From a virus: 39,737 nt of DNA. The first letter of the stretch is position 1. Each line of letters opens with the position of its first letter. The notes beneath the pieces were generated by a model. That model did no database searches and was not told the origin of the DNA. It saw only the letters and a list, made by a program, of their open reading frames with translations. Made by a program: the position numbers and the translations under genes. The stretch spans positions 1-39,737 of the IMG/VR virus record IMGVR_UViG_3300033141_003455. One strand, 5' to 3'. This document shows positions 8,192-21,820 of this stretch, piece by piece.

Positions 8192-8334
8192 GTTATTGAA
8201 ATCATTAAGTTTTTTAGCTAAAGCTAACCCTTTGAAATTATTAACTAAAGTTAAAAATTTTTATAACTAATTGAAATTATTAAGTTTTTTAATAGCTAAA
8301 GCTAACCTTTTGAAATCATTCTAAATTTTTATAA

Positions 8335-8363: not shown

Positions 8364-8440
8364 TTACCCTAACATAGCTAAAGCTAACCTAACTAAACCT
8401 AACTAAACCTAACCTAACTAAAGAAAGGAGGTGAGTAAGT

Positions 8441-8848: not shown

Positions 8849-8851
8849 AGT

Positions 8852-9538
8852 ATGTCTAACACTAAAACCAGAAAGGCCTTAGTCCTGTTGTCAGGAGGTC
8901 TAGACAGCTCTACGTGTTTAGCTGTAGCTAAACAGACCTACAACTGTACTGCAGTAGGGTTTAACTACAACCAGAGACATTTAGTAGAGTTGTTGAAAGC
9001 CTCTCAACAGGCCAAGAGCCAAAACGTTCCTTTCAAACTATTACGTTTACCCTTATACACTAGAAGTAGTCTTACAGACCACCAAATAAGTGTCAACCAA
9101 CGCTCTCAGTTTGCTAGGGACAAAAGGTTACCTAGTACGTTTACAGCCGGACGTAACCTAATCTTTCTAAGTCATATGTTAGCCTACGGATACCCACAGG
9201 GTATCAAGCACTACTTTATAGGTGTCAACAACGTAGACTACTCCGGTTATCCAGATTGTAAACCTGAGTTTATACAAAACGTAACCAACACCCTAAGGTT
9301 AGCTGTAGACGACCCTGGCATTTACGTCCACACTCCCTTAATCTCCTATCAAAAGGCAGCTATCATCAAACTGGGTCGTAGCCTAAACGTAGACTACTCT
9401 GAAACCTGGAGTTGTTACAACCCACAAGCCATAAATAAGGGTGAACCACTCGCCTGTGGTAAGTGTGAGAGTTGTCGAATTAGGTTGAAGGGTTTTAGAG
9501 AGGCTAACCTACAGGATCCTATTAAGTATGTAACCTAA
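8852..9538 (+). CDS. queC: 7-cyano-7-deazaguanine (preQ0) synthase QueC
   Basis: A 228-residue ATP-dependent enzyme that converts 7-carboxy-7-deazaguanine to preQ0 with ammonia. The PP-loop SGGLDSS is at residues 14-20. The zinc-binding cysteines C188, C202, C205 and C208 (SCYNP ... CGKCESCR) are all present. The length is normal for the family, and no fused glutamine amidotransferase domain is present, unlike the Gat-QueC of some phages. With QueD, QueE and FolE further downstream it completes the route from GTP to preQ0. With the DpdA-like enzyme it points to modification of phage DNA rather than of tRNA. It is separated from the other pathway genes by about 6.6 kb, but on the same transcript direction. 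Confidence 0.93.
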   Translation: MSNTKTRKALVLLSGGLDSSTCLAVAKQTYNCTAVGFNYNQRHLVELLKASQQAKSQNVPFKLLRLPLYTRSSLTDHQISVNQRSQFARDKRLPSTFTAGRNLIFLSHMLAYGYPQGIKHYFIGVNNVDYSGYPDCKPEFIQNVTNTLRLAVDDPGIYVHTPLISYQKAAIIKLGRSLNVDYSETWSCYNPQAINKGEPLACGKCESCRIRLKGFREANLQDPIKYVT

Positions 9539-9563
9539 AAGTAAACCTTATATGGAGGTAAAG

Positions 9564-9863
9564 ATGAACCACATACACCCCGAACCAAGTAAGTTTGCTG
9601 GTAAGAAGGTAAGAATCAAACAAGAGGTTGTCCACCCACAGTTCAAGGACTTCGGAGGTTCGGAGTTCTTAGTAGAGGACTGGTGGGACCGAGTTGCTGG
9701 TGAGTCTTGGATGTATTGTGAAGGAAACCCAGCTTGTCTGACCTATGCCGTCCGCTCAGGTCTCTTAGGACTTCCTATAGACAACGAGGTTTTATATGGA
9801 AAAGTTGGTCTGTACGGTCATCTAGTCCATATAAGCGAAATCTGTATAAACGAAAAACGTTAG
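9564..9863 (+). CDS. Conserved phage protein of unknown function (WWDRV..SWM type)
   Basis: A 99-residue protein. The earlier ATG at 9552 is part of the SD (ATGGAGGT), so ATG at 9564 is chosen. The stretches KKVRIKQE, LVEDWWDRVAGESWM, YAVRSGLLGLP and VLYGKVGLYGHLVHISE resemble a short protein found in many actinobacterial and other phages with no known role. The beta-rich fold with conserved Trp and Gly suggests a small barrel. It follows queC by 25 bases. Being next to queC may or may not be meaningful. There is no catalytic motif I can name. Confidence 0.75.
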   Translation: MNHIHPEPSKFAGKKVRIKQEVVHPQFKDFGGSEFLVEDWWDRVAGESWMYCEGNPACLTYAVRSGLLGLPIDNEVLYGKVGLYGHLVHISEICINEKR

Positions 9864-9871
9864 AGGTAAAG

Positions 9872-10012
9872 ATGAACCTAATAAACCAAATCTACTGTAC
9901 TAGCCTAGGTAAAGCCTTTTTGGGTATAGTTTTACACCACCTAAGTTGGCTATGGCCTGTAGGTATAACTATTCTATTCCTAACAACCCTTTATTATGTT
10001 TTAGAGAAATAA
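9872..10012 (+). CDS. Single-pass membrane microprotein
   Basis: A 46-residue protein: a short N-terminal region, then two hydrophobic stretches (AFLGIVLHHL, and WPVGITILFLTTLYYVL) that would form one or two membrane helices, ending in a short charged tail. It starts at ATG 9872 after GAGGTAAAG, a near-copy of the leader used by the preceding gene. It lies just upstream of the structured RNA element at 10017. Early membrane microproteins of phages may act in superinfection exclusion or host inhibition, but the role here is unknown. Confidence 0.65.
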   Translation: MNLINQIYCTSLGKAFLGIVLHHLSWLWPVGITILFLTTLYYVLEK

Positions 10013-10016
10013 CAGT

Positions 10017-10120
10017 GTGGGCGTAGACATAAACCGGCCTCGGAATGTAGCTAAATGAGATGTTCTCTTCCCTCTGTTATAAGAGCAAGAAGTGTGAATG
10101 GTTGCTACGTCTACGCCTAC
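10017..10120 (+). ncRNA. Structured RNA element A (12-bp closing stem, internal hairpins)
   Basis: Bases 10017-10028 pair with 10109-10120 (11 Watson-Crick pairs and one G-T). Immediately inside, GTAGC (10047-10051) pairs with GCTAC (10104-10108), so the two stems could stack. A small hairpin CCG-GCCT-CGG lies at 10034-10043, and CTCTT/AAGAG (10065-10069 with 10081-10085) closes an inner loop. It begins five bases after a stop codon. No ORF with an SD covers it, and it is too different from a tRNA. It could be a processing element, a riboswitch-like leader or a free small RNA. Confidence 0.55.
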
Positions 10121-10172
10121 ATCAAAACAAAAAAAAATTCAAGTTGAAAAGATTAGGGAGGAGGGAATAAAA

Positions 10173-10400
10173 ATGTACATAACAAAAAAGATGTTAGAGG
10201 AGCAAGTTAAACGTCTTAAAGAGGACCTAATCTTTAAAGAGTTTGAACTTGGTCAGAAGGACCACGAGGTGAACGAACTACGTACAAAACTCTTAGACCT
10301 TAAGTCTGTTATAAGAGAACAACAAAGAACGATAGACCACCTTACACAGGCCCAAAGGGCGTCTCTCAGTACCGCTATGTTACTCCTAACAAATACCTAA
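10173..10400 (+). CDS. Short coiled-coil protein, unknown
   Basis: A 75-residue, almost wholly helical protein with clear heptads (MLEEQVKRLKEDLIF, VNELRTKLLDLKSVI). I use ATG 10173 with the SD GGGAGGAGGG eight bases upstream. A longer reading from 10098 would begin inside the stem of RNA element A and lacks an SD. It probably dimerises. No DNA-binding or enzymatic motif is evident. Confidence 0.65.
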   Translation: MYITKKMLEEQVKRLKEDLIFKEFELGQKDHEVNELRTKLLDLKSVIREQQRTIDHLTQAQRASLSTAMLLLTNT

Positions 10401-10427
10401 AAAGACCTCAAGGAGTTCTTTAACGGA

Positions 10428-10643
10428 ATGAACAAATTTCTACTAGAACATATACAAACCTATAAAGACGACATTATTATTCCAATTTGCCCTCAAGTCC
10501 TTCTCGACAATCTTTGGAAGCGTCTCCAAAGTAAGAGGAGGGGGGACATAATGAGTCTAAATACAACAGGAAAGGAGGTGAGACCATATGGCAAAGAAGA
10601 AGTACTCCCCGGAGGAGATCGAGCGCATTCTACAAGAGAATAA
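10428..10643 (+). CDS. Possible small protein, weakly supported
   Basis: A 71-codon frame starting at ATG 10428 after a distant AAGGAG. Its last third overlaps the next gene in another frame. A better SD (AGAGGAGGGGGG) precedes an internal ATG at 10551, which would give only 30 residues. The first half (FLLEHIQTYKDDIIIPICPQVLLDNLWKRLQ) looks protein-like, which is why I list it. Either form, or neither, may be expressed. Confidence 0.4.
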   Translation: MNKFLLEHIQTYKDDIIIPICPQVLLDNLWKRLQSKRRGDIMSLNTTGKEVRPYGKEEVLPGGDRAHSTRE

Positions 10644-10875
10644 GGAACTGCGCGTCTACAAGCAAAGGGAGGAGGAGCGTAGGAAACGGCAAAAGGAGTC
10701 CGGCGCCTACAAAAAACAATACGAACGGATGAAGAAACGGATGCAAGAGGATCCGGAGTACGCTGAGCTCGTTAAGAAACAAAGGAAGAGCTATCAAGAG
10801 AAACGCCGCAGAAAGCTCCAGAAGATTATAGAGGAGCACAAGCGGTACGTAGAGCTCTACGGTCCTCTGTCCTAA
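10588..10875 (+). CDS. Highly charged helical protein, unknown
   Basis: A 95-residue protein built almost only of Lys, Arg, Glu, Gln and Tyr (for example KQREEERRKRQKES and KKQRKSYQEKRRRKLQ), predicted as one long basic helix. The SD is AAAGGAGGTGAGACCAT before ATG 10588. The composition suggests nucleic-acid or ribosome binding. Its stop is followed after 17 bases by the long hairpin at 10893-10955. The GC-rich codons here contrast with the AT-rich neighbours. It has no recognised family. Confidence 0.75.
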   Translation: MAKKKYSPEEIERILQENKELRVYKQREEERRKRQKESGAYKKQYERMKKRMQEDPEYAELVKKQRKSYQEKRRRKLQKIIEEHKRYVELYGPLS

Positions 10876-10892
10876 CCACCCTAAAACCTAAA

Positions 10893-10955
10893 GGGAGGCC
10901 GACCTACAACCTAAGTTAAAAAAGGTTAAAAAAGGTTAAAAAAGGTCGGCCTCCC
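10893..10955 (+). ncRNA. Long hairpin D (13-bp perfect stem, 37-base loop)
   Basis: GGGAGGCCGACCT (10893-10905) and its exact complement (10943-10955) close a loop made of GGTTAAAAAA repeats. No T-run follows, so it is not a standard terminator. It stands right after a stop codon, like elements A, B and C, and could protect or delimit an mRNA 3' end or be an RNase III target. Confidence 0.6.
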
Positions 10956-10963
10956 GTTCCTAA

Positions 10964-11009
10964 CGAAACAAAACGAAACAAAACGAAACAAAACGAAACA
11001 AAACGAAAG
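10964..11009. repeat. Tandem 10-bp CGAAACAAAA in a gene leader
   Basis: Four exact copies plus a partial fifth (CGAAAGG) that merges into the SD of the gene at 11019. The A-rich blocks recur every 10 bases, in phase with the DNA helix. Confidence 0.9.
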
Positions 11010-11018
11010 GGAGATGTC

Positions 11019-11255
11019 ATGCCTACCACAAAACAACTATGGGCTAGACAGAGAAACTGGGAAAAGGGTCTTTTAATGGCTATGAGGGTTCAGCTACAGG
11101 ACTTTAGGACCCTTACGCCTAGAGAGCGTCTCGACGCGGACCTATTGTTGTCGACCCTTAACAACCTAATAAACTGTTGGAAAGAACGGAACGAACACTC
11201 TAAATTCTACTATCTGAAATGGAGGAAAACGAAAGGTGAAAATACAACTACGTAA
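11019..11255 (+). CDS. Small helical protein upstream of the nuclease, unknown
   Basis: A 78-residue protein with no recognised domain. Aromatic and basic residues are frequent (LWARQRNWEKG, FYYLKWRKTKG). The SD is AAAGGGAG before ATG 11019. It overlaps the next gene (nuclease, GTG at 11236) by 20 bases, so the two are probably translated together. It may be a partner of the nuclease. Confidence 0.7.
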   Translation: MPTTKQLWARQRNWEKGLLMAMRVQLQDFRTLTPRERLDADLLLSTLNNLINCWKERNEHSKFYYLKWRKTKGENTTT

Positions 11256-12084
11256 CACAGCACTCAACTACTTTTGCGACTGCGAAACCAAGTTTTACCA
11301 CGGTGTGGTTCGCAGTCGTCAACTCAAGGAGAGGCCGGATTACTACTCAATAGGATCGTTGTACCACGAGGGTATGAAAGTCTTACTCCACCCTATCAAT
11401 AAAAACAAAAACTTACAGGATAGGTTTAATGACGCAACTAAACATATGCGTAATTATGCGGAGGAGAATTCGTTCTCTCAGGAGGTCTACGAGACAGCCC
11501 TTGGACTCCTCAGAGCCTACTTTACCAAGTACCCAGAAGACCCTGATGTCGACATAATCTCAGTCGAACAAGAGCTGAGTAGAGCGTTAATAGACCGTAA
11601 AGGTCTGAAAGTGGTCTACGAGGCTACTATAGACGCTATCGGTCGAACCAAAGACAGTTATAAACGTTTAGCTCTAATAGAACACAAGTCCACCTCAGGC
11701 TACGGGTCCACCTACAGTAGGTCTATTACACACAGCCCACAAGTTGACGGGTTTGCCTGGGTAGGTGAAGGTAGTCTAAAGGAGCCCATCGAGCTGGTGA
11801 TCGTTAACTATGGGGTTAAAACCCGCCAACCGCGTGCGGAACGTGATAAGGTAGTTATGAACTCCAACCGTATCCAAAAATGGTACGACTTCGCCGTACA
11901 TAAAGCTGAACGAATTGCAAAAGCAATCCAGACAAACGTTTACGATAGGAACCACTATCACTGTCATACAACTAGGTCTACCTGCCCCTACGTACAACTC
12001 TGCTGGCATGGTGAAAATGACGCTACGCTTCAATTGTATGAGGAAGTAAAGATGGGTAGGCCCACCTCCAAAATCACTCTTTAA
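11236..12084 (+). CDS. PD-(D/E)XK exonuclease with probable Fe-S cluster (Cas4/RecB-like)
   Basis: A 282-residue nuclease. The catalytic core is D133 (TIDAIGR), E149 and K151 (LIEHKS), preceded by the conserved His of the IGSLYHEG motif (H44) near the N terminus. Cysteines C14/C16 at the start and C243, C250, C256 at the end (CHTTRSTCPYVQLC) could hold a 4Fe-4S cluster, as in Cas4 and AddB. It would resect DNA ends and work with the Sak4-like ATPase and DUF669-like protein downstream in single-strand annealing or recombination. The start is GTG 11236 after GGAGGAAAACGAAAG. Spacing and cysteines differ a little from standard Cas4, and there is no CRISPR array in the window. Confidence 0.82.
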   Translation: MKIQLRNTALNYFCDCETKFYHGVVRSRQLKERPDYYSIGSLYHEGMKVLLHPINKNKNLQDRFNDATKHMRNYAEENSFSQEVYETALGLLRAYFTKYPEDPDVDIISVEQELSRALIDRKGLKVVYEATIDAIGRTKDSYKRLALIEHKSTSGYGSTYSRSITHSPQVDGFAWVGEGSLKEPIELVIVNYGVKTRQPRAERDKVVMNSNRIQKWYDFAVHKAERIAKAIQTNVYDRNHYHCHTTRSTCPYVQLCWHGENDATLQLYEEVKMGRPTSKITL

Positions 12085-12147
12085 CCTTAACGTAAGACAC
12101 TAACAACCTCGAAAATCTTAACGTAAAAAGGATTAAGGAGGTTTGAG

Positions 12148-12537
12148 ATGTTAACTATAGAAAACATACATCAGGACGTGTACCAGCTATACACGCTCCT
12201 ACGTAAGAACCACTTCATACCTAGAACCTTGGTAATATTAGGCAGACGCTCCTTATTACCAGGAGCGTGCCTAGTAGACCTTTTGAACCCTAGCTACGTA
12301 CGTTACGCGGACAAAGTCAACAAGTTACAAGAGTGTAAGTTGATAGGTGACACCCTAGTCTTTGTGTTCAACATAGAACACGAGGACTATGTAAAATGGG
12401 TACGACGCTCCCTGTTAGGTAGGACGTTCAAAATAGCTTGTTTATATAAAAGCTGTGTAGAGGAGCCTGACTTTTGCGTCTACGTCGTACCCCCCGAAGT
12501 ACAACTAACACTACCACTTAGAACCAACCAAAGCTAA
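12148..12537 (+). CDS. Unknown protein, 129 residues
   Basis: A mixed alpha/beta protein (HFIPRTLVILGRRSLLPG, then LIGDTLVFVFNIEHEDY) with no recognised domain. The start ATG has GGATTAAGGAGGTTTGAG upstream. It sits between the nuclease and the microprotein that precedes the Sak4-like ATPase, so it may belong to the recombination module. No catalytic or metal-binding pattern is evident. Confidence 0.7.
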   Translation: MLTIENIHQDVYQLYTLLRKNHFIPRTLVILGRRSLLPGACLVDLLNPSYVRYADKVNKLQECKLIGDTLVFVFNIEHEDYVKWVRRSLLGRTFKIACLYKSCVEEPDFCVYVVPPEVQLTLPLRTNQS

Positions 12538-12562
12538 CAAAACTGACGAGGAGACTTGAGAC

Positions 12563-12670
12563 GTGGCGAAATGTATCGTACTCTTAATATTAATAGTACT
12601 AATGCTACTAACTCTAGGAGCTTTACTGAGTATGTTTAGGAAGCTCTTGAGGGAAAGGAGGAATCGTTAA
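12563..12670 (+). CDS. Single-pass membrane microprotein, 35 residues
   Basis: GTG start at 12563 behind GACGAGGAGACTTGAG, ending with a TAA that abuts the ATG of the next gene. Residues 4-24 (CIVLLILIVLMLLTLGALLS) form one clear membrane helix, followed by a strongly basic tail (RKLLRERRNR), so the C terminus would stay inside the cell. It is a good candidate for a real small gene because the SD of the following gene lies in its last codons. The function is unknown. Confidence 0.6.
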   Translation: MAKCIVLLILIVLMLLTLGALLSMFRKLLRERRNR

Positions 12671-13459
12671 ATGCCTAAGTTACAAACCTATGATGGTGCC
12701 TCAGACCGTCACATAATCTTACTAATGGGACCCAGTAAGGCAGGTAAGACAACCCTAGCCTGTCTTTTATTCGGCAAACAAAACACCTTTGTGTTGTCGT
12801 TCGACCCAGATGGTTTGAAAAGCGTACGCCCCATCGACGCCTTCATCGTAGACCCTAAAAAACCCTGGGATTATTGTGTAGACGTCTTCCCAGAAATAAC
12901 CAAATTGAAGGGGAAGAAAAATACGTGCGTGGTGGACGACCTCACACACATGGGGTACGTCTTCCTCAGAGTCCAGAAGTCCTACAAAGACTCCAGAAAG
13001 ACCTACGGTGAAGCAATCGAACAGATGAGGCAGCTCGTTGAAAAACTTAAATATGACTTCCCGTGGTTGAACATTATCTACACCTCTACGGATATGTACG
13101 TCGAGGACCAGGAGGAGAAGGTGGTTATGACGTACCCTAACGTTATAGGTCGTTACACCTTTGCCCAGGAGATGCCTGGCAGGTGTGACCACGTCTTCTA
13201 CCTTCTACCGCCTAAGCAACGTAAGAAGGTTGTCGACGGCGGCAAACGTTTAATAATTGACAAAGTGGAACGTAAAATACTAACAACCTCGGATGGCGTC
13301 CTAATGGCTGGTAACCGAGTAAATCAAGCTGGAGGGGAAACAATTTTAGAACTACAAGAGGAGGTGAGCGTTGATGACGGACTTAAGAACATCGAACGAC
13401 TTAGATCGAAGTTACTCGGCACATACCGACCTAACAGCAGCAATACTAACGGCAATTGA
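12671..13459 (+). CDS. Sak4-like RecA-fold ATPase (phage recombinase)
   Basis: A 262-residue P-loop ATPase. The Walker A motif GPSKAGKTT is at residues 20-28 and the Walker B VVDD at 87-90 (NTCVVDDLTH). This architecture is that of the phage 'AAA_24'/Sak4 family, which loads on single-stranded DNA and promotes strand annealing. The partner DUF669-like protein lies two genes downstream, and the Cas4-like nuclease is upstream, which supports a recombination role. The SD is GGGAAAGGAGGAATC. The helix near the end (LKNIERLRSKLLGTYRP) is likely the interaction tail. It overlaps the start of the small gene at 13374. Confidence 0.8.
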   Translation: MPKLQTYDGASDRHIILLMGPSKAGKTTLACLLFGKQNTFVLSFDPDGLKSVRPIDAFIVDPKKPWDYCVDVFPEITKLKGKKNTCVVDDLTHMGYVFLRVQKSYKDSRKTYGEAIEQMRQLVEKLKYDFPWLNIIYTSTDMYVEDQEEKVVMTYPNVIGRYTFAQEMPGRCDHVFYLLPPKQRKKVVDGGKRLIIDKVERKILTTSDGVLMAGNRVNQAGGETILELQEEVSVDDGLKNIERLRSKLLGTYRPNSSNTNGN

Positions 13460-13631
13460 GGTCATCGAAGCTCTACCCAACACAAACGTACCCTGTACAA
13501 TAAACCCACAGGCCGTACACGGTACGTTCAACCACTACAGAAAGGAGGTGAGCAAGATATCCAAATCTCCCTTTATCTACGTAAAAACCTACACTAAGAA
13601 GAAGGAAAGGAGGAATAAGGTATGGCTGTAA
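13374..13631 (+). CDS. Small protein overlapping the Sak4-like gene, unknown
   Basis: An 85-residue frame starting at ATG 13374 with the SD GAGGAGGTGAGCG, overlapping 86 bases of the upstream gene and 10 bases of the next. The first part is acidic and polar (DLRTSNDLDRSYSAHTDL) and the end is basic (KTYTKKKERRNK). Without it there would be a 160-base hole in a tightly packed operon, which argues that it is real. A second SD-like AGAAAGGAGGTGAGC occurs inside it near 13540 with no usual start codon behind it. It has no recognised family. Confidence 0.55.
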   Translation: MTDLRTSNDLDRSYSAHTDLTAAILTAIEVIEALPNTNVPCTINPQAVHGTFNHYRKEVSKISKSPFIYVKTYTKKKERRNKVWL

Positions 13632-14041
13632 TTCGTACTAAGTTGAAAGATTTGGCCCAAGGCACCCCGGTTCCGGACGGCGTCTACCACTGCGAGGTAG
13701 TCAAACTGGAGGAGACCGAATTCCAATCCGGCTCCTGGGGGTTTAGTGGCGAACATAAAATCTTAGACGGTGAGCAGCAAAACCGTCGTTTGTTTGAAAA
13801 CTACATCCTTATTAACGAGGACGGTGAGCTGTCCGGCGCCGCCTTCAGGTTCGCCCAACTCTACGAAGCCTGCGTAAACGATGAGGTCGAACTGGAGGGT
13901 GAGACTGAAGAGGTCAAAGAGATACTAAGGAACCTTGCCGAGGCGTGCGTAGGCGCCACCTTCACCTGCGAGACTGAGGTTGAACCAGGTGAGGCTGAGT
14001 ATAGGGATAGGGCAAGGATCGTAAGGTACCATAAGGACTAA
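13622..14041 (+). CDS. DUF669-like single-strand DNA-binding protein
   Basis: A 139-residue acidic protein with a pattern of beta strands (VPDGVYHCEVVKLEETEFQS, YILINEDGELSG, TFTCETEVEPGEAEYRDRARI). This resembles the DUF669 family, proposed OB-fold single-strand-binding proteins that accompany Sak4 in phage genomes. The very acidic stretch (VELEGETEEVKEIL) is also typical. It would coat single-stranded DNA during replication and recombination. The SD AAAGGAGGAATAAGGT lies before the ATG. Assignment rests on context and overall pattern more than on exact motifs. Confidence 0.65.
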   Translation: MAVIRTKLKDLAQGTPVPDGVYHCEVVKLEETEFQSGSWGFSGEHKILDGEQQNRRLFENYILINEDGELSGAAFRFAQLYEACVNDEVELEGETEEVKEILRNLAEACVGATFTCETEVEPGEAEYRDRARIVRYHKD

Positions 14042-14062
14042 AAACCTAAGAATTAAAAGTTA

Positions 14063-14147
14063 CCGGCACCCTATCTAATTGTGTTATGGCGTTCCCTTCA
14101 TACTAGTTACGGAGGGTCGACCCAGGCAAGTTAGGTTAGGGTGCCGG
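14063..14147 (+). ncRNA. Structured RNA element B (11-bp closing stem)
   Basis: CCGGCACCCTA (14063-14073) is the exact complement of 14137-14147. Inside, CTAATT (14075-14080) can pair with 14129-14134 (one G-T), and GGG-TCGA-CCC (14114-14123) makes a hairpin. It shares GTGTTATGGCGTT and the GGGTNNACCC hairpin with element C. It starts 22 bases after the DUF669-like gene and lies in a 213-base gap that carries no gene. It is followed by tandem repeats and then an SD. Confidence 0.55.
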
Positions 14148-14182
14148 GTCACCTAAAACCTTTAACATACAAAAAGGACACC

Positions 14183-14235
14183 CTCACACAAACTTATACA
14201 AACTTATACAAACTCACACAAACTCATACAAACTC
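14183..14235. repeat. Tandem 10-bp AACTYAYACA in a gene leader
   Basis: Four full copies (14191, 14201, 14211, 14221) and partial copies at both ends lie between RNA element B and the SD of the gene at 14255. Copies differ only at C/T positions. Confidence 0.88.
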
Positions 14236-14254
14236 GCTATAGAAGGAGACCATT

Positions 14255-14443
14255 ATGAAATTACTACTTAGTCTCGGAACACTGACAGGTAGGTCCTTCT
14301 TAGGTATTAAAACTCTAAAGGTATACCTCTACAACCCCTTCAAAAAGCCTTACGCGAAGTTTGGGAACGTGAGACACCTAAGACTTTGTGGCGTAAAATT
14401 CGTCTGGGTGAAAAGGATAAAAAGGATAAAAAGGAGGCCGTAA
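14255..14443 (+). CDS. Small basic protein, unknown
   Basis: A 62-residue protein with SD AGAAGGAGACC before the ATG. It has a hydrophobic N-terminal third and a strongly basic C terminus made of a short repeat (KRIKRIKRRP). That end is encoded by AAAAGGATA units, the last of which forms the SD of the next gene. It has no recognised family. The composition suggests nucleic-acid or membrane binding. Confidence 0.65.
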   Translation: MKLLLSLGTLTGRSFLGIKTLKVYLYNPFKKPYAKFGNVRHLRLCGVKFVWVKRIKRIKRRP

Positions 14444-14444
14444 A

Positions 14445-14708
14445 ATGTCTGAGCCTGAAATAGACCTAAATCTCGAAAACGAAAACGAAAACGAAAACCT
14501 GGAGGAAATTATAGACATTAGCATGTACAACTTAGACAACCCTTCAGAATTTGACGAGGATACATATCACAAACTCCGTTTACATGAGCTGCGTAAGTCG
14601 AGAAAAGTTAGAAGGCTGTGTAAGGAATGCGGGTTTGCCGACCTTGTAGATAAGGACATTCGGTTCTGCCCTACCTGCGGCTTCGAACTGGAGGGTTGGA
14701 ACGACTAA
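14445..14708 (+). CDS. Zinc-ribbon protein with acidic N terminus
   Basis: An 87-residue protein. The first third is very acidic, with an Asn-Glu dipeptide repeat (NENENENENLEE, encoded by repeated CGAAAA). The C-terminal third holds a rubredoxin-like zinc ribbon, C-x2-C ... C-x2-C (LCKECGF, FCPTCGF). Such ribbons bind DNA, RNA or protein. It is the first of five small Cys-rich genes in a row, ending at 16125. Its partner is unknown. Confidence 0.72.
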   Translation: MSEPEIDLNLENENENENLEEIIDISMYNLDNPSEFDEDTYHKLRLHELRKSRKVRRLCKECGFADLVDKDIRFCPTCGFELEGWND

Positions 14709-14731
14709 ATAGTTGAAAAAAGGAGGTAGCT

Positions 14732-15046
14732 ATGTACAGAGGTCAAACGAGAACACATATAAAAAACATGTGTAGGGGTAAGAACTACCCGTTGTGTAAG
14801 ATAAGACTTGACGACGGGAGTATTTGTAATACGCCTATTCGTCCCAAACTATATATAAGCCCTTCAGGTAAGATATCTACTAGACCCTCTGCCAGTTCAA
14901 TAGAGCTCAACCTCAGGTATATGTGTGAGATATGTTATAAGGAACAACGACCAGTAGAACTGGTAGAAACCAAACACAAAAGAGGTCAAATCGACTGCGA
15001 TTGGAGGGATATGGTATGTACCGACGTAAGCGTACCCGTATACTAA
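14732..15046 (+). CDS. Cys-rich small protein, unknown
   Basis: A 104-residue protein. It has an N-terminal C-x-ten-C pair region (MCRGKNYPLCKIRLDDGSIC) and then CEIC in the middle (YMCEICYKEQRP), a possible zinc finger. The SD AAAAAGGAGGTAGCT is strong. It overlaps the next gene by 31 bases. The layout resembles a treble-clef or HNH-like zinc fold, but the His-Asn-His catalytic set is not visible, so I do not call a nuclease. Confidence 0.65.
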   Translation: MYRGQTRTHIKNMCRGKNYPLCKIRLDDGSICNTPIRPKLYISPSGKISTRPSASSIELNLRYMCEICYKEQRPVELVETKHKRGQIDCDWRDMVCTDVSVPVY

Positions 15047-15324
15047 CCTACAACCCAGACATACACGCTAAGAGACTTATTAGGATGTTTGAGAGTTCGG
15101 AATGCTGTGGGTGTCCAGTAACCCGTAAGTTCAAGCCTAGAAACAGACCTATACCCTTAGCACGTAATCCAGAGGCAGAGGGCGTTATGGCTAAGGTATG
15201 CCGCCTATGCAAGACATTTATAAAGGTCCCTATTACAGACTCTTGTCCGTGTCTAGCGCTTGGTAAGGAGGAGGCTGTTAAACGTACATGGATAGCCCTT
15301 GAAGAGAAGGGATACCTTAAATAA
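15016..15324 (+). CDS. Cys-rich protein, paralogue 1 of the CPCxALGKEEAVKRTW family
   Basis: A 102-residue protein. I use ATG 15016 (GGAGGGATATGGT upstream) rather than the TTG at 15001. The order is: a basic N terminus, CCGCP, CRLCKTF, CPCLALGKEEAVKRTW and a C-terminal helix (ALEEKGYLK). The same order is found in the gene at 15814, so the two are duplicates. The Cys pairs probably bind zinc, and the conserved helix could be a partner- or DNA-binding element. I know no family for it. Both copies sit just before the queuosine genes. Confidence 0.7.
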   Translation: MYRRKRTRILTYNPDIHAKRLIRMFESSECCGCPVTRKFKPRNRPIPLARNPEAEGVMAKVCRLCKTFIKVPITDSCPCLALGKEEAVKRTWIALEEKGYLK

Positions 15325-15350
15325 AATACAATAAACCGAAAGGAGTTGAA

Positions 15351-15539
15351 ATGGGAGAATTAAGAAATTTAACTGAAGAAAATGTTGAGGAACTAAAGGT
15401 AAATCTTAAGCGAATGCAACAGGACAACCCGGACCTTGAGTATCGGTTTTTTCAGCAGAATGAGACCGATACATTGGATATAATTACAATCAATGGTCAT
15501 GTTTTAATAAACAGTGCCTTCCGAAAAATACCTAGCTGA
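15351..15539 (+). CDS. Small acidic protein, unknown
   Basis: A 62-residue protein with SD CGAAAGGAGTTGAA before its ATG. A helical N-terminal half (ENVEELKVNLKRMQQ) is followed by beta strands (YRFFQQNETDTLDIITING). It has no recognised domain and no cysteines, unlike its neighbours. Codon choice here and in the next gene is visibly less rich in CTA, GTA and CGT codons than in most of the operon, which may mean a later arrival. Confidence 0.6.
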   Translation: MGELRNLTEENVEELKVNLKRMQQDNPDLEYRFFQQNETDTLDIITINGHVLINSAFRKIPS

Positions 15540-15563
15540 CCAGTCACTCGAGTCGACTAAAAG

Positions 15564-15785
15564 ATGAAGGAAGTACCAAGACCAGTCATATGTTCGATGT
15601 GTGGAAGTAAGATGAAAATTAAGGAATGGATGAGCGCATCGCTCAAATACCCTGATACCGATCCCAACCTCCTGATTCCGCATATGAACAGGAGCCATGA
15701 GTGTCAAGTGTGTAAACATTTGTGGCTTAGCACTGATGATATTTTGTGTGTAGGAAATATACTGGTTTGGCTTGAGATGCCTTGA
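15564..15785 (+). CDS. Small zinc-ribbon-like protein
   Basis: A 73-residue protein with two knuckles, CSMCGSKM (about residues 9-16) and CQVCKHLW (about 45-52), the usual C-x2-C ... C-x2-C layout of a zinc ribbon, with HMNRSHE between them. The C terminus is hydrophobic. No strong SD precedes the ATG, so its translation may depend on the gene upstream. Its partner is unknown. Confidence 0.55.
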   Translation: MKEVPRPVICSMCGSKMKIKEWMSASLKYPDTDPNLLIPHMNRSHECQVCKHLWLSTDDILCVGNILVWLEMP

Positions 15786-15813
15786 ATAAGATATTAGATT
15801 AAGGAGGACTACA

Positions 15814-16125
15814 GTGAAATGTAAATACACTAAAGACGACCATGCCAAAAGGATTATCAAATTACTCGAATCTCCGAAGGCGTGTTTCAAGTGCCCAGGA
15901 CAGACAACCTTCGGACCTAACCTGTACGTTGCTCCCAGGAGCATTCCTTCTACGATCACAGATGAAGAAGAAATTCCTGTCTCCATCTTACCAAGAGAAG
16001 TCTGCTTGGTATGTAGAACCTTTGTTGGACTTCTTTTTACAGACAACTGTCCCTGCAATGCCCTTGGAAAGGAGGAAGCTGTCAAACGAACATGGTTAGC
16101 CTTAGAGGAAAAGGGTTACATATAA
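15814..16125 (+). CDS. Cys-rich protein, paralogue 2 of the CPCxALGKEEAVKRTW family
   Basis: A 103-residue protein starting at GTG 15814 after AAGGAGGACTACA. Against paralogue 1 (15016-15324) it keeps the order CFKCP, CLVCRTF, CPCNALGKEEAVKRTW, ALEEKGYI, while the loop between the first two Cys pairs has diverged and lengthened. The strongest identity is in the last 25 residues. Retention of two copies suggests that each has a job, perhaps as subunits of one complex. No family is recognised. It is followed after 16 bases by queD. Confidence 0.72.
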   Translation: MKCKYTKDDHAKRIIKLLESPKACFKCPGQTTFGPNLYVAPRSIPSTITDEEEIPVSILPREVCLVCRTFVGLLFTDNCPCNALGKEEAVKRTWLALEEKGYI

Positions 16126-16141
16126 AAAAAGGAGGTAAAAG

Positions 16142-16516
16142 ATGAAAACTGTTTTAGGTTATATGACGACGTTCCACGCCGCCCACAAGCTGTCGATGCA
16201 CACAGGTAAGTGTAAAAATCTCCACGGGCATACCTACAGACTCCTAGTGGAGGTGGAGGGTCATCCTAACTATAACAGACACGACCCTTCATACGGTATG
16301 ATAATAGACTTTAAGGAGCTTAAACAAATCGTAGAAGGTGTCGTAGAAAAGGTTGACCACACCTATCTCAACGACTCTACTAATACCTACCCAACCGCTG
16401 AATTCCTTTGCAGGTGGATCTGGGGAGAACTACATGTACACCTCGAACACATACTTAAACGTGTTCGTTTATGGGAGACCGACCACACCTACGCCGAATT
16501 CAGAGCGAGGGGTTAA
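16142..16516 (+). CDS. queD: 6-carboxy-tetrahydropterin synthase QueD
   Basis: A 124-residue enzyme that makes 6-carboxy-5,6,7,8-tetrahydropterin from 7,8-dihydroneopterin triphosphate, the second step to preQ0. The zinc ligands H15 (FHAAHKL), H28 and H30 (NLHGH) are present, with catalytic C24 (GKCKNLHGH), the segment YGMIIDFKEL, DHTYLN, and a C-terminal Glu in LWETDHTYAEF. The length is normal. The SD is AAAAAAGGAGGTAAAAG. Together with the next genes it forms the block queD-queE-folE with short gaps. Confidence 0.93.
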   Translation: MKTVLGYMTTFHAAHKLSMHTGKCKNLHGHTYRLLVEVEGHPNYNRHDPSYGMIIDFKELKQIVEGVVEKVDHTYLNDSTNTYPTAEFLCRWIWGELHVHLEHILKRVRLWETDHTYAEFRARG

Positions 16517-16536
16517 ACTCAAGAGGAGGGAGAAAG

Positions 16537-17136
16537 ATGACCAAAATTATACCAGTAGCCGAGACGTTCGAAAGCTACCAAGGAGAAGGTAGACATGCGT
16601 TCACCCCTATGTTTTTTATAAGACTAGCAGGGTGTAACCTAAAGTGTTCGTTTTGCGACACCGACCACAGAACCAGATTGGAGTATGCGGTTGAGGAACT
16701 TGTCAGCCTAGCAAGCAGATCAGAGCTAAAGTGTATATGTATTACAGGTGGCGAGCCTACTATACATCCTTTACTACGTAAGCTCGTACAAACCCTTTTA
16801 GACAAAGGCCATAAGGTGTACGTAGAAACAAACGGAGTAGAGCCCATACCAGACCTTCCACGAACCTATATATCCTGCTCCCCTAAGGAGATTATGGACC
16901 TAACGAACCTCGATAAGGTTAACGAGTGGAAGGTCTTAATTCCAACCTATAGTAAATGGGTACACCAACTACGTAACCTTGACACCGCGGCCCATAAGTT
17001 CGTACAACCAATAGATCCAGGTGGACGTAAACCCTATCTAGTACGTATAAAAGAAAACCTTGAGCTCTGCGAACCCTACCTGAGGGAGGGATGGAAACTC
17101 TCTCTCCAATGGCATAAGGTGTTCGGCTGGCAGTAA
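16537..17136 (+). CDS. queE: 7-carboxy-7-deazaguanine synthase QueE (radical SAM)
   Basis: A 199-residue radical SAM enzyme that rearranges carboxy-tetrahydropterin to 7-carboxy-7-deazaguanine. The cluster-binding motif is C33-x3-C37-x2-C40 (GCNLKCSFCDT). GGEP (SAM contact), VYVETNG and the family C terminus (LQWHKVFGW) are also present, and SYQGEGRHAFTPM near the start is typical of QueE. The start is ATG 16537 with GAGGAGGGAGAAAG upstream, in preference to a frame opening at 16471 inside queD. The small size is that of the compact QueE form. Confidence 0.93.
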   Translation: MTKIIPVAETFESYQGEGRHAFTPMFFIRLAGCNLKCSFCDTDHRTRLEYAVEELVSLASRSELKCICITGGEPTIHPLLRKLVQTLLDKGHKVYVETNGVEPIPDLPRTYISCSPKEIMDLTNLDKVNEWKVLIPTYSKWVHQLRNLDTAAHKFVQPIDPGGRKPYLVRIKENLELCEPYLREGWKLSLQWHKVFGWQ

Positions 17137-17140
17137 TAAC

Positions 17141-17169
17141 AAACTATAACAAACTATAACAAACTATAA
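17141..17169. repeat. Tandem 10-bp AAACTATAAC in the folE leader
   Basis: Three copies (17141, 17151, 17161, the last with A for C at its end) lie between the queE stop and the folE SD (AAAGGAAAGGA). Confidence 0.85.
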
Positions 17170-17186
17170 AAGGAAAGGATGAACGA

Positions 17187-17774
17187 ATGGAAAAAGGACG
17201 TCTGGTTTTAGAAAACCTAACGAAAGAGGGAAAGAAGAAAATACTCAACAAGTTAGAGGACGCCTTCGCCGACATACTAGACGCGCTAGGCGCCCCTGAC
17301 AACGACCTAAACTTTAGAGACACCCCTAACAGGTGTGCCAGAGCTCTGTTGGACGACTTCATAGCCGACGACTTCGAAATCAGCGAGTTTGAGGAGGAAC
17401 CTTTCGACGGTATGATCACCTGGCCATCTCACACCGTCTGGACTAGGTGTCCACACCACCTCGAGAGGGTAGGCATAAGAGTCTGTGCGAGTTACATCCC
17501 ACGCTCCAGTAGAGTCGTAGGCCTCTCCAAACCTATCCGTCTAATGGACTACCTAGCTAAAGGTTGTATTCTACAGGAGACCTATACCCGTCTCCTAGCC
17601 GATGAGATTATGGACCACCTAGAACCGGAGGGTTGCGGCGTACATACAGAAGCACGTCACCAATGTATGCAGTGTAGAGGTGTACGTACCCACTCACCAG
17701 TACGTATGACAATCCTACGTGGCTCGTTTGCCTACAGTCGTTCTATAAAAGAAGAGTTCCTTAGGAATGTTTAA
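17187..17774 (+). CDS. folE: GTP cyclohydrolase I FolE
   Basis: A 195-residue enzyme that opens GTP to 7,8-dihydroneopterin triphosphate, the entry step for preQ0. Zinc ligands C88 and H91 (TRCPHHL) and C160 (RHQCMQCRGV) are present, with catalytic H90 and H158, and VVGLSKPIRLMDYLA and the ending RMTILRGSF are conserved. The N-terminal part has the usual helices with RDTPNRCARAL. A phage-borne folE beside queD and queE argues for deazaguanine synthesis rather than folate. The stop is followed by RNA element C. Confidence 0.92.
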   Translation: MEKGRLVLENLTKEGKKKILNKLEDAFADILDALGAPDNDLNFRDTPNRCARALLDDFIADDFEISEFEEEPFDGMITWPSHTVWTRCPHHLERVGIRVCASYIPRSSRVVGLSKPIRLMDYLAKGCILQETYTRLLADEIMDHLEPEGCGVHTEARHQCMQCRGVRTHSPVRMTILRGSFAYSRSIKEEFLRNV

Positions 17775-17786
17775 TAGGTTTTATTA

Positions 17787-17891
17787 GGTTGTACGGAGCC
17801 CCGACTAGCCGGGAGAGTGTGGCGTTGGGGGTGTACCCGTCCGATGTGCGGCCACTGCAGAATTCGGGTTGCTGGAAGGGGCTCCATAACC
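17787..17891 (+). ncRNA. Structured RNA element C (8-bp stem with outer 4-bp extension)
   Basis: GGAGCCCC (17795-17802) is the exact complement of 17878-17885, and GGTT/AACC (17787-17790 with 17888-17891) pair outside. Inside, GTGGC (17819-17823) pairs with GCCAC (17851-17855) around a GGG-TGTA-CCC hairpin (17829-17838). It shares GTGTGGCGTT and GGGTNNACCC with element B. It begins 12 bases after folE and is followed by a T6 tract about seven bases past the stem, too far for a standard terminator. It could control or delimit folE or the next gene. Confidence 0.55.
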
Positions 17892-17910
17892 CTTTTTTGG
17901 GGGGTTTAAA

Positions 17911-18114
17911 ATGAAATACTACAAAAAGGGTAAGATAGAAGTTATAGACTTTATAGTCGACCAACAACTCGGCTTTCGGGAGGGTAATGTAGTCAAATAC
18001 ATTTGTAGGTATAAACATAAAAGCCGTTCTCGTAAACACCGACTACAAGACTTGCGTAAGGCTAGACACTATATACAGATGTTAATTGACGAGTACGAAA
18101 CAGCCTTAGGTTGA
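17911..18114 (+). CDS. DUF3310 protein
   Basis: A 67-residue protein matching the DUF3310 pattern: YYKKGKIEVIDFIVDQQLGF, then GNVVKYICRYKHK and a final LRKARHYIQMLI. This short domain is common in phages, where it is often annotated as nucleotide-kinase-like, without proven activity. The conserved 'G...KY..R...K' helix is intact. Its ATG follows a weak G-rich SD (GGGGGGTTTAAA) just after RNA element C, so the RNA may tune its translation. Confidence 0.8.
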   Translation: MKYYKKGKIEVIDFIVDQQLGFREGNVVKYICRYKHKSRSRKHRLQDLRKARHYIQMLIDEYETALG

Positions 18115-18150
18115 TTTAGGTTGATTTAGGTTAATTTAGGTTGATTAAGG
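18111..18150. repeat. Tandem 10-bp TTGATTTAGG ending in an SD site
   Basis: Four copies (18111, 18121, 18131, 18141). The last, TTGATTAAGG, runs straight into AGG and so makes the SD AAGGAGG of the gene at 18159. This shows how a ribosome site can arise from, or be re-spaced by, the repeat. Confidence 0.88.
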
Positions 18151-18158
18151 AGGTCGAA

Positions 18159-18404
18159 ATGAAACCTAGGTATGAAATCAGACTAATTGACGACGATTGG
18201 ATCTTAACGGAGTTCCACGCAAACTCCGACAAAATCAAAGCCCAGATCATTTTGACTAACGAGGAGGCTGTTGCAATCTGTCGTCATATTCTACGATACA
18301 ACCTTGGAGGCGTAAATGGACGGGAGAAAGGCAACGAGTTACCCAAACATATCAAAGCAGCCTACGGTATTTTACGACCTATTCAAATTAAATCGGAGGC
18401 GTAA
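18159..18404 (+). CDS. Small protein upstream of the HTH gene, unknown
   Basis: An 81-residue protein. The ATG at 18159 follows AAGGAGGTCGAA; an earlier frame start at 18141 lies in the repeat and is not used. A beta-rich first half (RYEIRLIDDDWILTEFHA) is followed by a helical region (NEEAVAICRHILRYN). It abuts the next gene (stop at 18404, ATG at 18405). No family is recognised. Confidence 0.65.
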   Translation: MKPRYEIRLIDDDWILTEFHANSDKIKAQIILTNEEAVAICRHILRYNLGGVNGREKGNELPKHIKAAYGILRPIQIKSEA

Positions 18405-18704
18405 ATGGACGAGAGGAAGGAACAACTCGAATACCTTTATTATGATTGCAAGATGTCTATAAGCCAAATGGCTCGCCACCTACATATGAAACCCCCAACT
18501 CTCTACAGAGAGTTGCGACAACTAGGAATAAAGATGCGACCCAGAGGCGGCCCTAACAAACCAAGAATCTTAGAGAACCTAGAGCGAGATGGCCTGGACG
18601 TTATGCAAATTATAAAGGAGGCTGGGAACTTGGATAAGGCAGCCGTTCGTCTAGGCGTAAGTCGAGGAACCCTTTACAAGTGGTTGAAAAGGAGGACACG
18701 ATGA
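18405..18704 (+). CDS. Double helix-turn-helix DNA-binding protein
   Basis: A 99-residue protein with two HTH units: one around residues 17-37 (MSISQMARHLHMKPPTLYREL) and one at the C terminus (about 73-96, KAAVRLGVSRGTLYKWLKRRT). The second resembles the Fis/NtrC-type recognition helix. A basic linker with PRGGPNKPR joins them. It probably regulates transcription of the early or middle genes or binds the repeats in the intergenic region. Its stop overlaps the polymerase ATG (ATGA), so expression is coupled to replication. Confidence 0.75.
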   Translation: MDERKEQLEYLYYDCKMSISQMARHLHMKPPTLYRELRQLGIKMRPRGGPNKPRILENLERDGLDVMQIIKEAGNLDKAAVRLGVSRGTLYKWLKRRTR

Positions 18705-20986
18705 ACGAATGTAACAAATGTAAATTATGTGTGGAACGTACAAAGGTAGTCCCAGCTAGAGGCAACCTTAACAGCCCAATATGTTTGTTAGGTATGGGAC
18801 CCGGGGCCACTGAGGACCAGAAGGGTATACCGTTTTGTGGTGACACAGGAGCCCTTCTACACCGCCTGCTGGCAGACGCCGGCCTGTCTAATAAGACGTA
18901 CACTCAAAACACTATAACAGGTGACAACGAATGGCTGTTTGAGGTATACGCCAAAAAAAGGTTTTTTAAGGTTATATACAAACCCTATATAATGATTGAT
19001 AATGTGGTTAGGTGCCGTCCGCCTAATAACAGAGCCCCTACTCTAGAGGAAATGGAGGCGTGCCACGTACACACCGAAAGGCTATTTAGGAGGATGCCTA
19101 ACCTAAAGGTAATTATTGCCTGCGGGGCTCCGGTTCTACAACATTTTACTGGTCACACGAGCATAACTAAATATAGAGGGTATCCATTTCAATACAACGA
19201 CTATATAGTCATCCCAATAGTACACCCTCGCTTCATCCAACAACAATGGCAGTATTACGATATAACCGTTTACGACCTAGAGAAAGCCAACAGGTTGGCT
19301 CTGGAGGGTTGGCAGCCACCTAAGACGGATTACGTAGAGGCAAGTCATATTCCTAGAGATGAGGTGTTAGGTAAGCTATCAAAATGTTATGCGTTCGACA
19401 TCGAGACCGTTGGTATGGAAGAGAAGGACGCCCTAGACCCAGTAAGAGGTCATATTACTGGTATGGCGTGCTCCTATGCCGAAGGTAAAGCTATACATTT
19501 CGACTTCGACAATAGGTACGAACGCGACCTAGCTAAAGAGGTATTAGAGAACGACGCCTACAAAACAGCTCATAATGCTACGTTCGACGTTACCTTCCTC
19601 AGACGTATGAACATAAAGATAAAGGCTGACTTTGATACCTCTCTAGCCCAGTACAGCTTGGTACCCCACTGGCCTAAATCCCTAGCGTTTTGTAATTCTC
19701 TACATACCGACTACCCCTACTACAAGAGCATGCGGACCTCTCTAGACAGAAACGATAGGATTACCTACTGCTGCTTTGATGCGGACACTACCTACCAGAA
19801 CTACGTCAAACTGTCTAAGGAAGTTAAACAGGAGGGAACCTCAGACGTCCTAAAGGAGATCGTTTTCCCGCTTGTCCACGTCTGTAGCGGGATGACCTTA
19901 ACAGGTATAAAGGTAAACGAGCAAATGTTAGACGAACAACTAGAGGAGGTAAGTAAAGAGGCAGACCAAATATGGGACCATTTTGACAAGTATAATGTTA
20001 ACATTCGCTCTCCTAAACAACTTAACGAGATGTTCGTCGCCCTAGGTTTAGGTAGGCAAGCCTCTACAGACGAGGACCACTTGGAACGTCTCTATAAGAA
20101 TACAGAAAGTCCCGTAGTAGCAGCCATCCTAGACTATCGTAAAAAGAACACAATCCAAAAGTGGTTGCGTACTATAAAAAGTAATTTGTTCAACGGACGT
20201 ATCCACGCTAGGTTCGGTCCATCTGGTACCGAGACCGGTAGGTTAAACTCCGAGAAGCCTAACATGCAGAACGTTAACAAAAAACGTAGACATATATTCA
20301 TACCTGATGAGGGTAAGGTATTACTACAGGCTGACTACGACAGGTTGGAGTTTGCCGTAGCAGCTATTTTAGCAAACGACGAGAAAATGATACACGACGC
20401 CTTCTACAAACACATTCATAAGGAGGTTACTACGTTGTTACACGGGCCTAATTATACTGACCAACAATACCTTGAGGGTAAGAGCATAGTCTTTGGTTTA
20501 ATCTATGGGAGAACAACCGGTTCCATAGCCCTCAAGTTTGGCATCCCAAAATGGAAGGCTCAGAAGTATGTAGATATAGTTTTAGGTAACTACCCCGGAC
20601 TAGACACCTTTAGGAAGACTTTACAACGTAAAGCTAAGAGTGATGGGTTTCTACGATCCGCCTTCGGACGCATTCGTTATTTTCTAAGAGGCAACATTAC
20701 CGGTCAAGCTCTCAACTTCCCAGTTCAATCGGCCGCGGCTGACGTCACCCTTAGCTCTTTGATACGTTTATCCCACTTACTAGAGGAGAAGTATCCCGAG
20801 GCCGACCTGTTGTTATCAGTTCACGACTCTATATTAATTCAATGTCCTGAGGAGGACGTATACAAATATGCTAAGTTAATGAAGGAGGTGATGGAGCGAC
20901 CTATACCGCAACTCAAAAACATGAGCTTTAAGGTAAGTTTTGAATATGGTTACAACTGGAGAGATTTGAAGGAATTGGAGGTGTAG
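18701..20986 (+). CDS. Uracil-DNA glycosylase / DNA polymerase A fusion
   Basis: A 761-residue replicative polymerase. Residues 1-200 are a family-4 UDG: C4, C7, C105 and C121 as Fe-S ligands, GMGPGATED (31-39), VRCRPPNNR and the HP motif (VHPRF, 175-176). The 3'-5' exonuclease follows with FDIET (D233, E235), HNATFDVTF and FDADTTY. The polymerase has motif A (LLQADYDRLEF), the fingers helix GKSIVFGLIYG and motif C (LSVHDSIL); in motif C the usual HDE reads HDS. The UDG has an insertion of about 25 residues before its second Cys pair. Similar UDG-polymerase fusions are known, for example in SPO1-type phages. The start at 18701 has AAAAGGAGGACACG upstream. Confidence 0.93.
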   Translation: MNECNKCKLCVERTKVVPARGNLNSPICLLGMGPGATEDQKGIPFCGDTGALLHRLLADAGLSNKTYTQNTITGDNEWLFEVYAKKRFFKVIYKPYIMIDNVVRCRPPNNRAPTLEEMEACHVHTERLFRRMPNLKVIIACGAPVLQHFTGHTSITKYRGYPFQYNDYIVIPIVHPRFIQQQWQYYDITVYDLEKANRLALEGWQPPKTDYVEASHIPRDEVLGKLSKCYAFDIETVGMEEKDALDPVRGHITGMACSYAEGKAIHFDFDNRYERDLAKEVLENDAYKTAHNATFDVTFLRRMNIKIKADFDTSLAQYSLVPHWPKSLAFCNSLHTDYPYYKSMRTSLDRNDRITYCCFDADTTYQNYVKLSKEVKQEGTSDVLKEIVFPLVHVCSGMTLTGIKVNEQMLDEQLEEVSKEADQIWDHFDKYNVNIRSPKQLNEMFVALGLGRQASTDEDHLERLYKNTESPVVAAILDYRKKNTIQKWLRTIKSNLFNGRIHARFGPSGTETGRLNSEKPNMQNVNKKRRHIFIPDEGKVLLQADYDRLEFAVAAILANDEKMIHDAFYKHIHKEVTTLLHGPNYTDQQYLEGKSIVFGLIYGRTTGSIALKFGIPKWKAQKYVDIVLGNYPGLDTFRKTLQRKAKSDGFLRSAFGRIRYFLRGNITGQALNFPVQSAAADVTLSSLIRLSHLLEEKYPEADLLLSVHDSILIQCPEEDVYKYAKLMKEVMERPIPQLKNMSFKVSFEYGYNWRDLKELEV

Positions 20987-21820
20987 ATGAGCGTAGAACA
21001 ACAAATACTGTTATCTATGGAGATACCCTATAAACACTTACAACACTTTTACCTTCAGGAGGACATAGGTTTCTGTATAGCTCCCTACGTAAGAGAGAAA
21101 AAGGAATATATAGAACACTACAAACTTCAGGTTCTCGCTGGCAAAAGGGTCATACTGGACAACGGGATGTACGAACAAGGCGTAGCTATAAACAACGAGG
21201 AACTTATCAAAACAGCTAAGTCCTTAGTGACTACGTCTGAACAACCCTATATAATAGCCCCGGACGTTATGGGCGACTCTATTAAATCCTACGAGTTGAC
21301 CACGGCCTTTAGAGAACAGGCGAGATGGAATGGACTGTATAGAATAGGAGCCGTAGTGCACGGTAAAAATGTAAACGAGATGATTAATTACTACAAATGG
21401 CTAGTAAATGAGGGCTTCGAACCTATATGCATAACATTTTTAGAGAACCGTATAGACCTCCTTAGAAAGTTAAGACTAGAGTACGACATCTGGCACCACT
21501 TTCTAGGTATGACTACCATAGAGGAAATTAAATATATTCGCTCTTATATTCCTTTACCACGTATGACAAGTATAGACACCTGTAAGCCTATTAAAGCAGC
21601 TTTACACAACTTACGTATAACACAGAACGTTAGAGGTTTAGGTACATGGTCACCAACCGTAGAACTCGACGAGAAGGCTATAATACTAACCCTGGAGAAC
21701 ATTAAAACGTTAAAATTCTACCTACAGGCGAGCCTCCCACTTGCTAAGGTACATAAAAGGTACGCTACACAGGAGGAGTTATGCGGTACCGAGAGCTCAT
21801 TCCAAAAGAAGGATGGATAA
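20987..21820 (+). CDS. dpdA: DpdA-like DNA 7-deazaguanine transglycosylase
   Basis: A 277-residue relative of tRNA-guanine transglycosylase. Marks of the phage DpdA group are VILDNGMYE (55-63), IAPDVMGD (90-97), GAVVHGKN (121-128), HHFLGM (170-175) and SIDTCKP (195-201), whose D197 could be the nucleophile. The C-terminal zinc domain of bacterial tRNA-type enzymes is not evident. It would exchange guanine in DNA for preQ0 or a derivative. It directly follows the polymerase gene without a gap and overlaps the next gene, so it belongs to the replication block. It might instead act on tRNA, but with QueC, QueD, QueE and FolE in the same genome, DNA is the likelier target. Confidence 0.82.
   Translation: MSVEQQILLSMEIPYKHLQHFYLQEDIGFCIAPYVREKKEYIEHYKLQVLAGKRVILDNGMYEQGVAINNEELIKTAKSLVTTSEQPYIIAPDVMGDSIKSYELTTAFREQARWNGLYRIGAVVHGKNVNEMINYYKWLVNEGFEPICITFLENRIDLLRKLRLEYDIWHHFLGMTTIEEIKYIRSYIPLPRMTSIDTCKPIKAALHNLRITQNVRGLGTWSPTVELDEKAIILTLENIKTLKFYLQASLPLAKVHKRYATQEELCGTESSFQKKDG

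Follow-up and report, generated by a model that had tools for sequence, protein, structure and literature searches.

Phages that carry 7-deazaguanines in their DNA are the closest described counterparts of the system reported here. In phages CAjan and Rosebush, FolE, QueD, QueE and QueC, together with DpdA and without an amidotransferase, lead to dPreQ0, the deoxynucleoside of 7-cyano-7-deazaguanine (preQ0) (PMC6884629). In the DNA of Campylobacter phages CP220 and CPt10, 100% of deoxyguanosine (dG) is reported to be replaced by 2'-deoxy-7-amido-7-deazaguanosine (dADG) (PMC8306585), and Campylobacter phages were listed in 2019 as being without DpdA (PMC6884629). Here, we analyze the IMG/VR virus record IMGVR_UViG_3300033141_003455 over its whole length of 39,737 bases (the window), which carries all four preQ0 genes and, directly behind its DNA polymerase gene, a gene for a DpdA-like protein. 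We propose, with a probability of about 0.82, that this phage makes preQ0 and that the DpdA-like protein, a compact transglycosylase, inserts it into phage DNA as dPreQ0 as a protection against restriction.

Results

The genes for FolE, QueD, QueE and QueC are all present on the plus strand, open and intact, and each has a family-level match. The first, queC (8852..9538), encodes a preQ0 synthase of 228 amino acids (aa), which converts 7-carboxy-7-deazaguanine (CDG) to preQ0 (PF06508, 1.4e-63); its best solved relative is the QueC structure 3bl5 (E 6.7e-37), with the motifs aligned. The 6-carboxytetrahydropterin synthase gene queD (16142..16516, 124 aa; PF01242, 3.4e-32) has a strong ribosome site, AAGGAGG, and its product has relatives of known structure in 2oba (3.7e-20) and in the solved QueD proteins 4ntm and 3qn0 (E ~1e-16). 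It is followed by queE (16537..17136, 199 aa), encoding a radical SAM 7-carboxy-7-deazaguanine synthase (phrog_2076, 6e-29; solved QueE 6nhl, E 1.5e-16, and 4njg, 7e-13), and by folE (17187..17774, 195 aa), encoding GTP cyclohydrolase I (PF01227, 1.4e-29; solved GTP cyclohydrolases, 8e-19). The queE start is placed at the ATG at 16537, which is preceded by the Shine-Dalgarno sequence AAGAGGAGGGAG; the longest open reading frame (ORF) would start at 16471, inside queD, and was rejected in favor of the start with the ribosome site.

An initial annotation of this DNA, made from its letters alone, had stated that the four enzymes keep their key residues, and alignment confirms the catalytic and metal-binding residues: SGGLDSS, YNQRHLVE, GRN, YPDC and CxxCxxC in QueC; HAAH, CKNLHGH, DH and ET in QueD; CX3CX2C and TGGEP in QueE; and CPHH and HQCMQC in FolE. 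QueC departs in two places from the signature used for comparison (PMC13329287), with TAGRN instead of VPxRN, the essential Arg being retained, and with its first zinc Cys 13 residues ahead of CxxCxxC where the signature has 8.

The DpdA-like protein (20987..21820, plus strand, 277 aa) is a predicted compact, zinc-free DNA guanine/7-deazaguanine transglycosylase. Searched as a single sequence it has no Pfam match and no match in a PDB sequence search, and its best family match is phrog_19058 (E 1.5e-9), a PHROG of unknown function. Weak tblastn matches led to two phage proteins encoded within preQ0 clusters that adjoin polA: one from Flavobacterium phage immuto, annotated as a DNA guanine transglycosylase, and one from Bacillus phage BSP7, which has no name. 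A search of viral contigs with the alignment of these three sequences gave 158 candidate relatives, 80 of which were retrieved. In a 40-sequence family alignment Asp58, Asp93, His171 and Asp197 are invariant, within the motifs LDN, PD, HHxLG and SxDT, and these motifs occur in the order found in DpdA. Family members are compact (244-277 aa), and the same alignment holds no conserved Cys/His zinc cluster.

At the profile level the protein is homologous to those of immuto and CP220: the family profile matches CPT_0056 of CP220 (E 3.4e-80) and a protein of Weizmannia phage Youna2 (8e-40). CPT_0056 (locus L097:8676-9452), annotated only as hypothetical, clearly belongs to the compact DpdA family. 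The same profile matched nothing in phage 9g and nothing in nt-1, CAjan and Dp-1, the transglycosylases of these three included. For the CAjan/9g type (DpdA1) there was no profile match in NC_028776 or NC_024146 at E<=10, and the hhalign probability against CAjan DpdA was <2%; for DpdA2 there was no profile match in Vibrio phage nt-1 (NC_021529). By these sequence comparisons the 20987-21820 protein is assigned neither to the CAjan type nor to the DpdA2 of nt-1. In the tree, the window groups with a podovirus-like relative, L006 (support 100/99). A second deep branch holds BSP7 and Youna2, and a third unites immuto and CP220 with the remaining sequences; the order of the branches is unsure because they are long. 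On sequence evidence, the window protein is placed as a deep branch of the compact family. L006 keeps polA, dpdA, the primase gene and the four preQ0 genes, with identities of 30-41%, and it has the same gene set and the same dpdA-primase order as the window at a polymerase identity of only ~31%. A DpdA3 subfamily, associated with complete replacement, was reportedly named by Cui et al. in 2023; it is probably the compact immuto/CP220 family.

Structural comparison points to a DNA enzyme. The family profile finds a single PDB chain, 7ui4, a bacterial DNA-guanine transglycosylase, at a weak E-value of 0.053; the alignment spans HLLG...SID and so includes the nucleophile motif, with HLLGIARPESF...VTSIDSTTP set against HHFLGMTTIEEIK...MTSIDTCKP. 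An AlphaFold (AF2) model of the protein (predicted local distance difference test, pLDDT, 85.8; predicted template modelling score, pTM, 0.82) also finds its best PDB match in 7ui4 (E 3.4e-6, TM-score 0.48), the crystal structure of a bacterial DpdA with the described function of a DNA preQ0 insertase. Viral structure matches include the DpdA2 of nt-1 (E 5.9e-5), along with several phage proteins that carry a queuine transferase annotation. The initial description of the protein as DpdA-like therefore stands with respect to the structural match to a DNA enzyme, but not as closeness to the classical phage DpdA, which the profiles do not support.

These data also bear on the proposal that the pathway boosts host tRNA queuosine in support of translation, with the 20987-21820 protein acting as a tRNA-guanine transglycosylase (TGT). 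Such a role has been suggested for phages with preQ0 genes but without dpdA (PMC6884629), TGT has the same TIM-barrel fold, and PF01702 is just reached, at E 0.06, by a few members of the family. However, the proteins are compact and lack the zinc site, no tRNA enzyme appears among the 50 best PDB structure matches of the model, and the window has no QueF, QueA or QueG. The dpdA-like gene also lies among replication genes, and its family includes that of CP220, the DNA of which is fully modified. As far as it could be tested, grouping with tRNA enzymes, the outcome that had been set against the original proposal, did not occur, with 7ui4 ranking first, and we regard a tRNA role as highly improbable. 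The protein is most likely a DNA-type base transglycosylase, as indicated by three independent tests, namely linkage, structure and motifs; structure alone would not settle this identity, which we assign from the three in combination.

Linkage was counted in 27 non-redundant, well-flanked loci of the family, in which FolE is found 24 times, QueD, QueE and QueF 22 times each and QueC 14 times; at least three of FolE, QueD, QueE and QueC occur in 22 of the 27. The window QueD matches 10 of 50,697 phage records (a lower bound, as the search was not very sensitive) and, given this rarity, the linkage of the family to preQ0 genes is far beyond chance. The BSP7 protein (BSP7_057) is encoded within a queC-queD-queE-folE-polA cluster, and polA lies within ~6 kb of dpdA in 17/27 relatives. 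In the window, the dpdA-like ORF starts at 20987, directly after the polA stop at 20986 and without a gap, in agreement with the initial report of a transglycosylase relative right behind the DNA polymerase, and the two genes are probably in the same operon. The polA gene (18680..20986, plus strand) encodes a family A DNA polymerase with an N-terminal uracil-DNA-glycosylase-like domain (PF00476, 1.7e-63; PF03167, 5.5e-18), and the end of the dpdA-like gene is overlapped by a primase/helicase-like replication gene (21781..23085, plus strand; phrog_14296, 1.8e-34; 30% identity to its L006 homologue).

The typical order in most relatives is dpdA, a formyltransferase-like gene (PF00551), an AAA_28 P-loop kinase gene and QueF, as seen in L003:12948-13999, L029, L036, L010, L097:9494-10036 and others. 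A small kinase-like gene (AAA_28; dNK-like in BSP7) adjoins dpdA in 36/53 non-redundant loci, including those of CP220 (CPT_0057), BSP7 and Youna2. A nucleotide-kinase-like neighbor would suit an exchange of the base on free nucleotides (dGMP or dGTP), with the modified base then incorporated by the polymerase, and incorporation of modified dGTP has been proposed for Campylobacter phages (cited in PMC6884629). The window and L006 have no QueF, PF00551 formyltransferase or AAA_28 kinase, however, and the closest structure is that of an enzyme described as acting on DNA. We keep exchange at the nucleotide level only as a weak rival, given the missing kinase, and consider it very unlikely; we know of no TGT relative that works on nucleotides.

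The absence of a QueF-like reductase and of an amidotransferase-fused QueC, both noted initially, was confirmed: scans of the window found no QueF-type ORF, its QueC is unfused at 228 aa, and the profiles and scans used found no Gat, ArcS-like or formyltransferase gene. Together with the rule published for such a minimal gene set (PMC6884629), the lack of QueF, amidotransferase and formyltransferase genes makes dPreQ0 the expected base, as first suggested. The same enzymes could nevertheless yield another final base if an unrecognized phage or host protein converted preQ0 to dADG, 2'-deoxyarchaeosine (dG+) or another form. CP220, which has a DpdA-like protein of the same family, carries dADG (PMC8306585), Salmonella phage 7-11 is another example, dpdA-only phages showed dADG from an unidentified enzyme (PMC6884629), and several ORFs of the window are without a family match. 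Set against this are the scans described above and the small genes between queC and queD, which are not beside the pathway in L006, BSP7, Youna2 and the further relative L030. A different final base is thus possible, though we think it unlikely.

Those intervening genes had been described as several unknown small genes, some of which might be accessory to the system. Neither part of this description held: family scans place among them a PD-(D/E)XK exonuclease (11236-12084), a Sak4-like recombination ATPase (12671-13459) and a DUF669 protein resembling single-stranded DNA-binding protein (SSB) (13622-14041), so that what separates queC from queD is a recombination module plus small zinc-ribbon ORFs, and not unknown genes alone. 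An accessory role was rejected, as only the recombination genes recur in relatives. Two small cysteine-rich ORFs in this region (15001-15324 and 15814-16125) are tandem paralogs without family matches that share the motifs AKR..I...ES..C..C and EAVKRTW.ALEEKGY.

Metabolism and replication genes occupy the center of the window (8441-23374) on the plus strand, and structural genes (portal, terminase, tail and internal virion protein) lie on the minus strand in its left and right parts. The sole near-identical contig found has 31,669 bases and is 100% identical over the part compared; scans of viral contigs with single window proteins (DpdA-like, QueC and PolA) gave nothing beyond one identical contig, and a scan of genome contigs gave only three weak matches, in metagenome bins, with no hint of a host. 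Between folE and polA, an ORF of 67 aa (17911-18114) is of the DUF3310 type (PF11753, 1.2e-12), a domain that is often fused to phage nucleotide kinases and here stands alone. We also considered, and rejected, a structured RNA in the interval from folE to 17911 (fold z-score -0.8, no Rfam match).

The divergent gene blocks are separated by an AT-rich, largely non-coding stretch of ~1.5 kb (6924-8440) with many iterated motifs and a 136-nt imperfect inverted repeat (arms 7916-8051 and 8079-8214); it is a possible replication origin. Ten short tandem arrays, with a period of 8-11 that in most cases is exactly 10 bp, differ from one another in their repeat unit and are nearly all intergenic; they lie at 620-659, 7737-7772, 7815-7916, 8386-8413, 10915-10946, 10962-11008, 14183-14235, 14411-14435, 17136-17169 and 18106-18150. 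No such array occurs in any of 20 local dinucleotide shuffles or in the L006 genome.

Discussion

Family scans, gene context across many unrelated phages and structure support the initial proposal of a complete preQ0 pathway with a DpdA-like enzyme in a phage with 7-deazaguanine DNA. The intact genes, the family placement, the fold, the motif order and the conserved linkage are direct results of the analysis; that the substrate is DNA, the base preQ0 and the purpose anti-restriction is what we infer. In the proposed mechanism, FolE, QueD, QueE and QueC would convert GTP to preQ0, and the transglycosylase would break the glycosidic bond of guanines in phage DNA and put preQ0 in their place, giving dPreQ0. 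Asp197 of S-x-D-T would act as nucleophile, and the base and the DNA would be held by Asp58, Asp93 and His171. The DNA would be modified as it is copied; the polA-dpdA-primase order and the closeness of polA to dpdA in relatives suggest such modification near replication. Guanines modified in this way would protect the DNA from host restriction enzymes, as published work leads us to expect, and the phage genome is probably chemically disguised against them.

Several points weigh against this proposal. The TM-score to 7ui4 is just 0.48, with other TIM barrels scoring nearly as high, and the sequence match to it has an E-value of 0.053. The window/L006 branch is long and has altered nearly invariant residues (H11->M and S60->G, and in the window also Q125->H), so its preference for base or target could differ. 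The unknown small genes might alter preQ0 further, and the host may add enzymes. A bolder version, in which the window and L006 represent a separate DpdA subfamily and a minimal five-gene, replication-coupled system exchanges most or all guanine for preQ0 in a 40 kb podovirus genome, is speculative and, in our judgment, doubtful.

The kind of system is already known, and its enzyme is a deep branch that standard protein-family databases do not recognize. What is unusual is the extreme divergence of this enzyme, a small genome with only the minimal gene set, and membership in a family that is linked to complete guanine replacement. Among enzymes that place 7-deazaguanines in DNA, the window thus contributes a deep, database-invisible branch from a small phage with a minimal gene set. 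Extensive guanine replacement with five genes, if true, would offer a toolkit for producing DNA that resists restriction, and it would allow a clean test of the factors that determine how far replacement goes.

Compared with known systems, the window resembles the Group 2 phages, Escherichia coli phage CAjan and Mycobacterium phage Rosebush, in having four preQ0 genes and one DpdA-type enzyme without an amidotransferase or QueF, with dPreQ0 as the predicted base (PMC6884629). These phages have a DpdA of the CAjan type or a DpdA2, whereas that of the window belongs to the compact family, which profile searches do not connect to them. With the immuto/CP220 family it shares the profile family, the invariant motifs, the lack of a zinc site and preQ0 clusters near polA, although most loci of that family add QueF, a PF00551 formyltransferase and an AAA_28 kinase, none of which the window or L006 has. 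BSP7 and Youna2 have, like the window, queC, queD, queE, folE, dpdA-like and polA genes without QueF in the regions examined; they lie on a separate deep branch with a kinase gene followed by dpdA and then polA, whereas in the window dpdA follows polA. The bacterial DpdA 7ui4 shares the HLLG and SID[ST] motifs and is both the best structural and the best profile match, but it has 436 aa and belongs to a multi-gene bacterial dpd island, whereas the window protein has 277 aa and is encoded by a single gene in a phage replication module.

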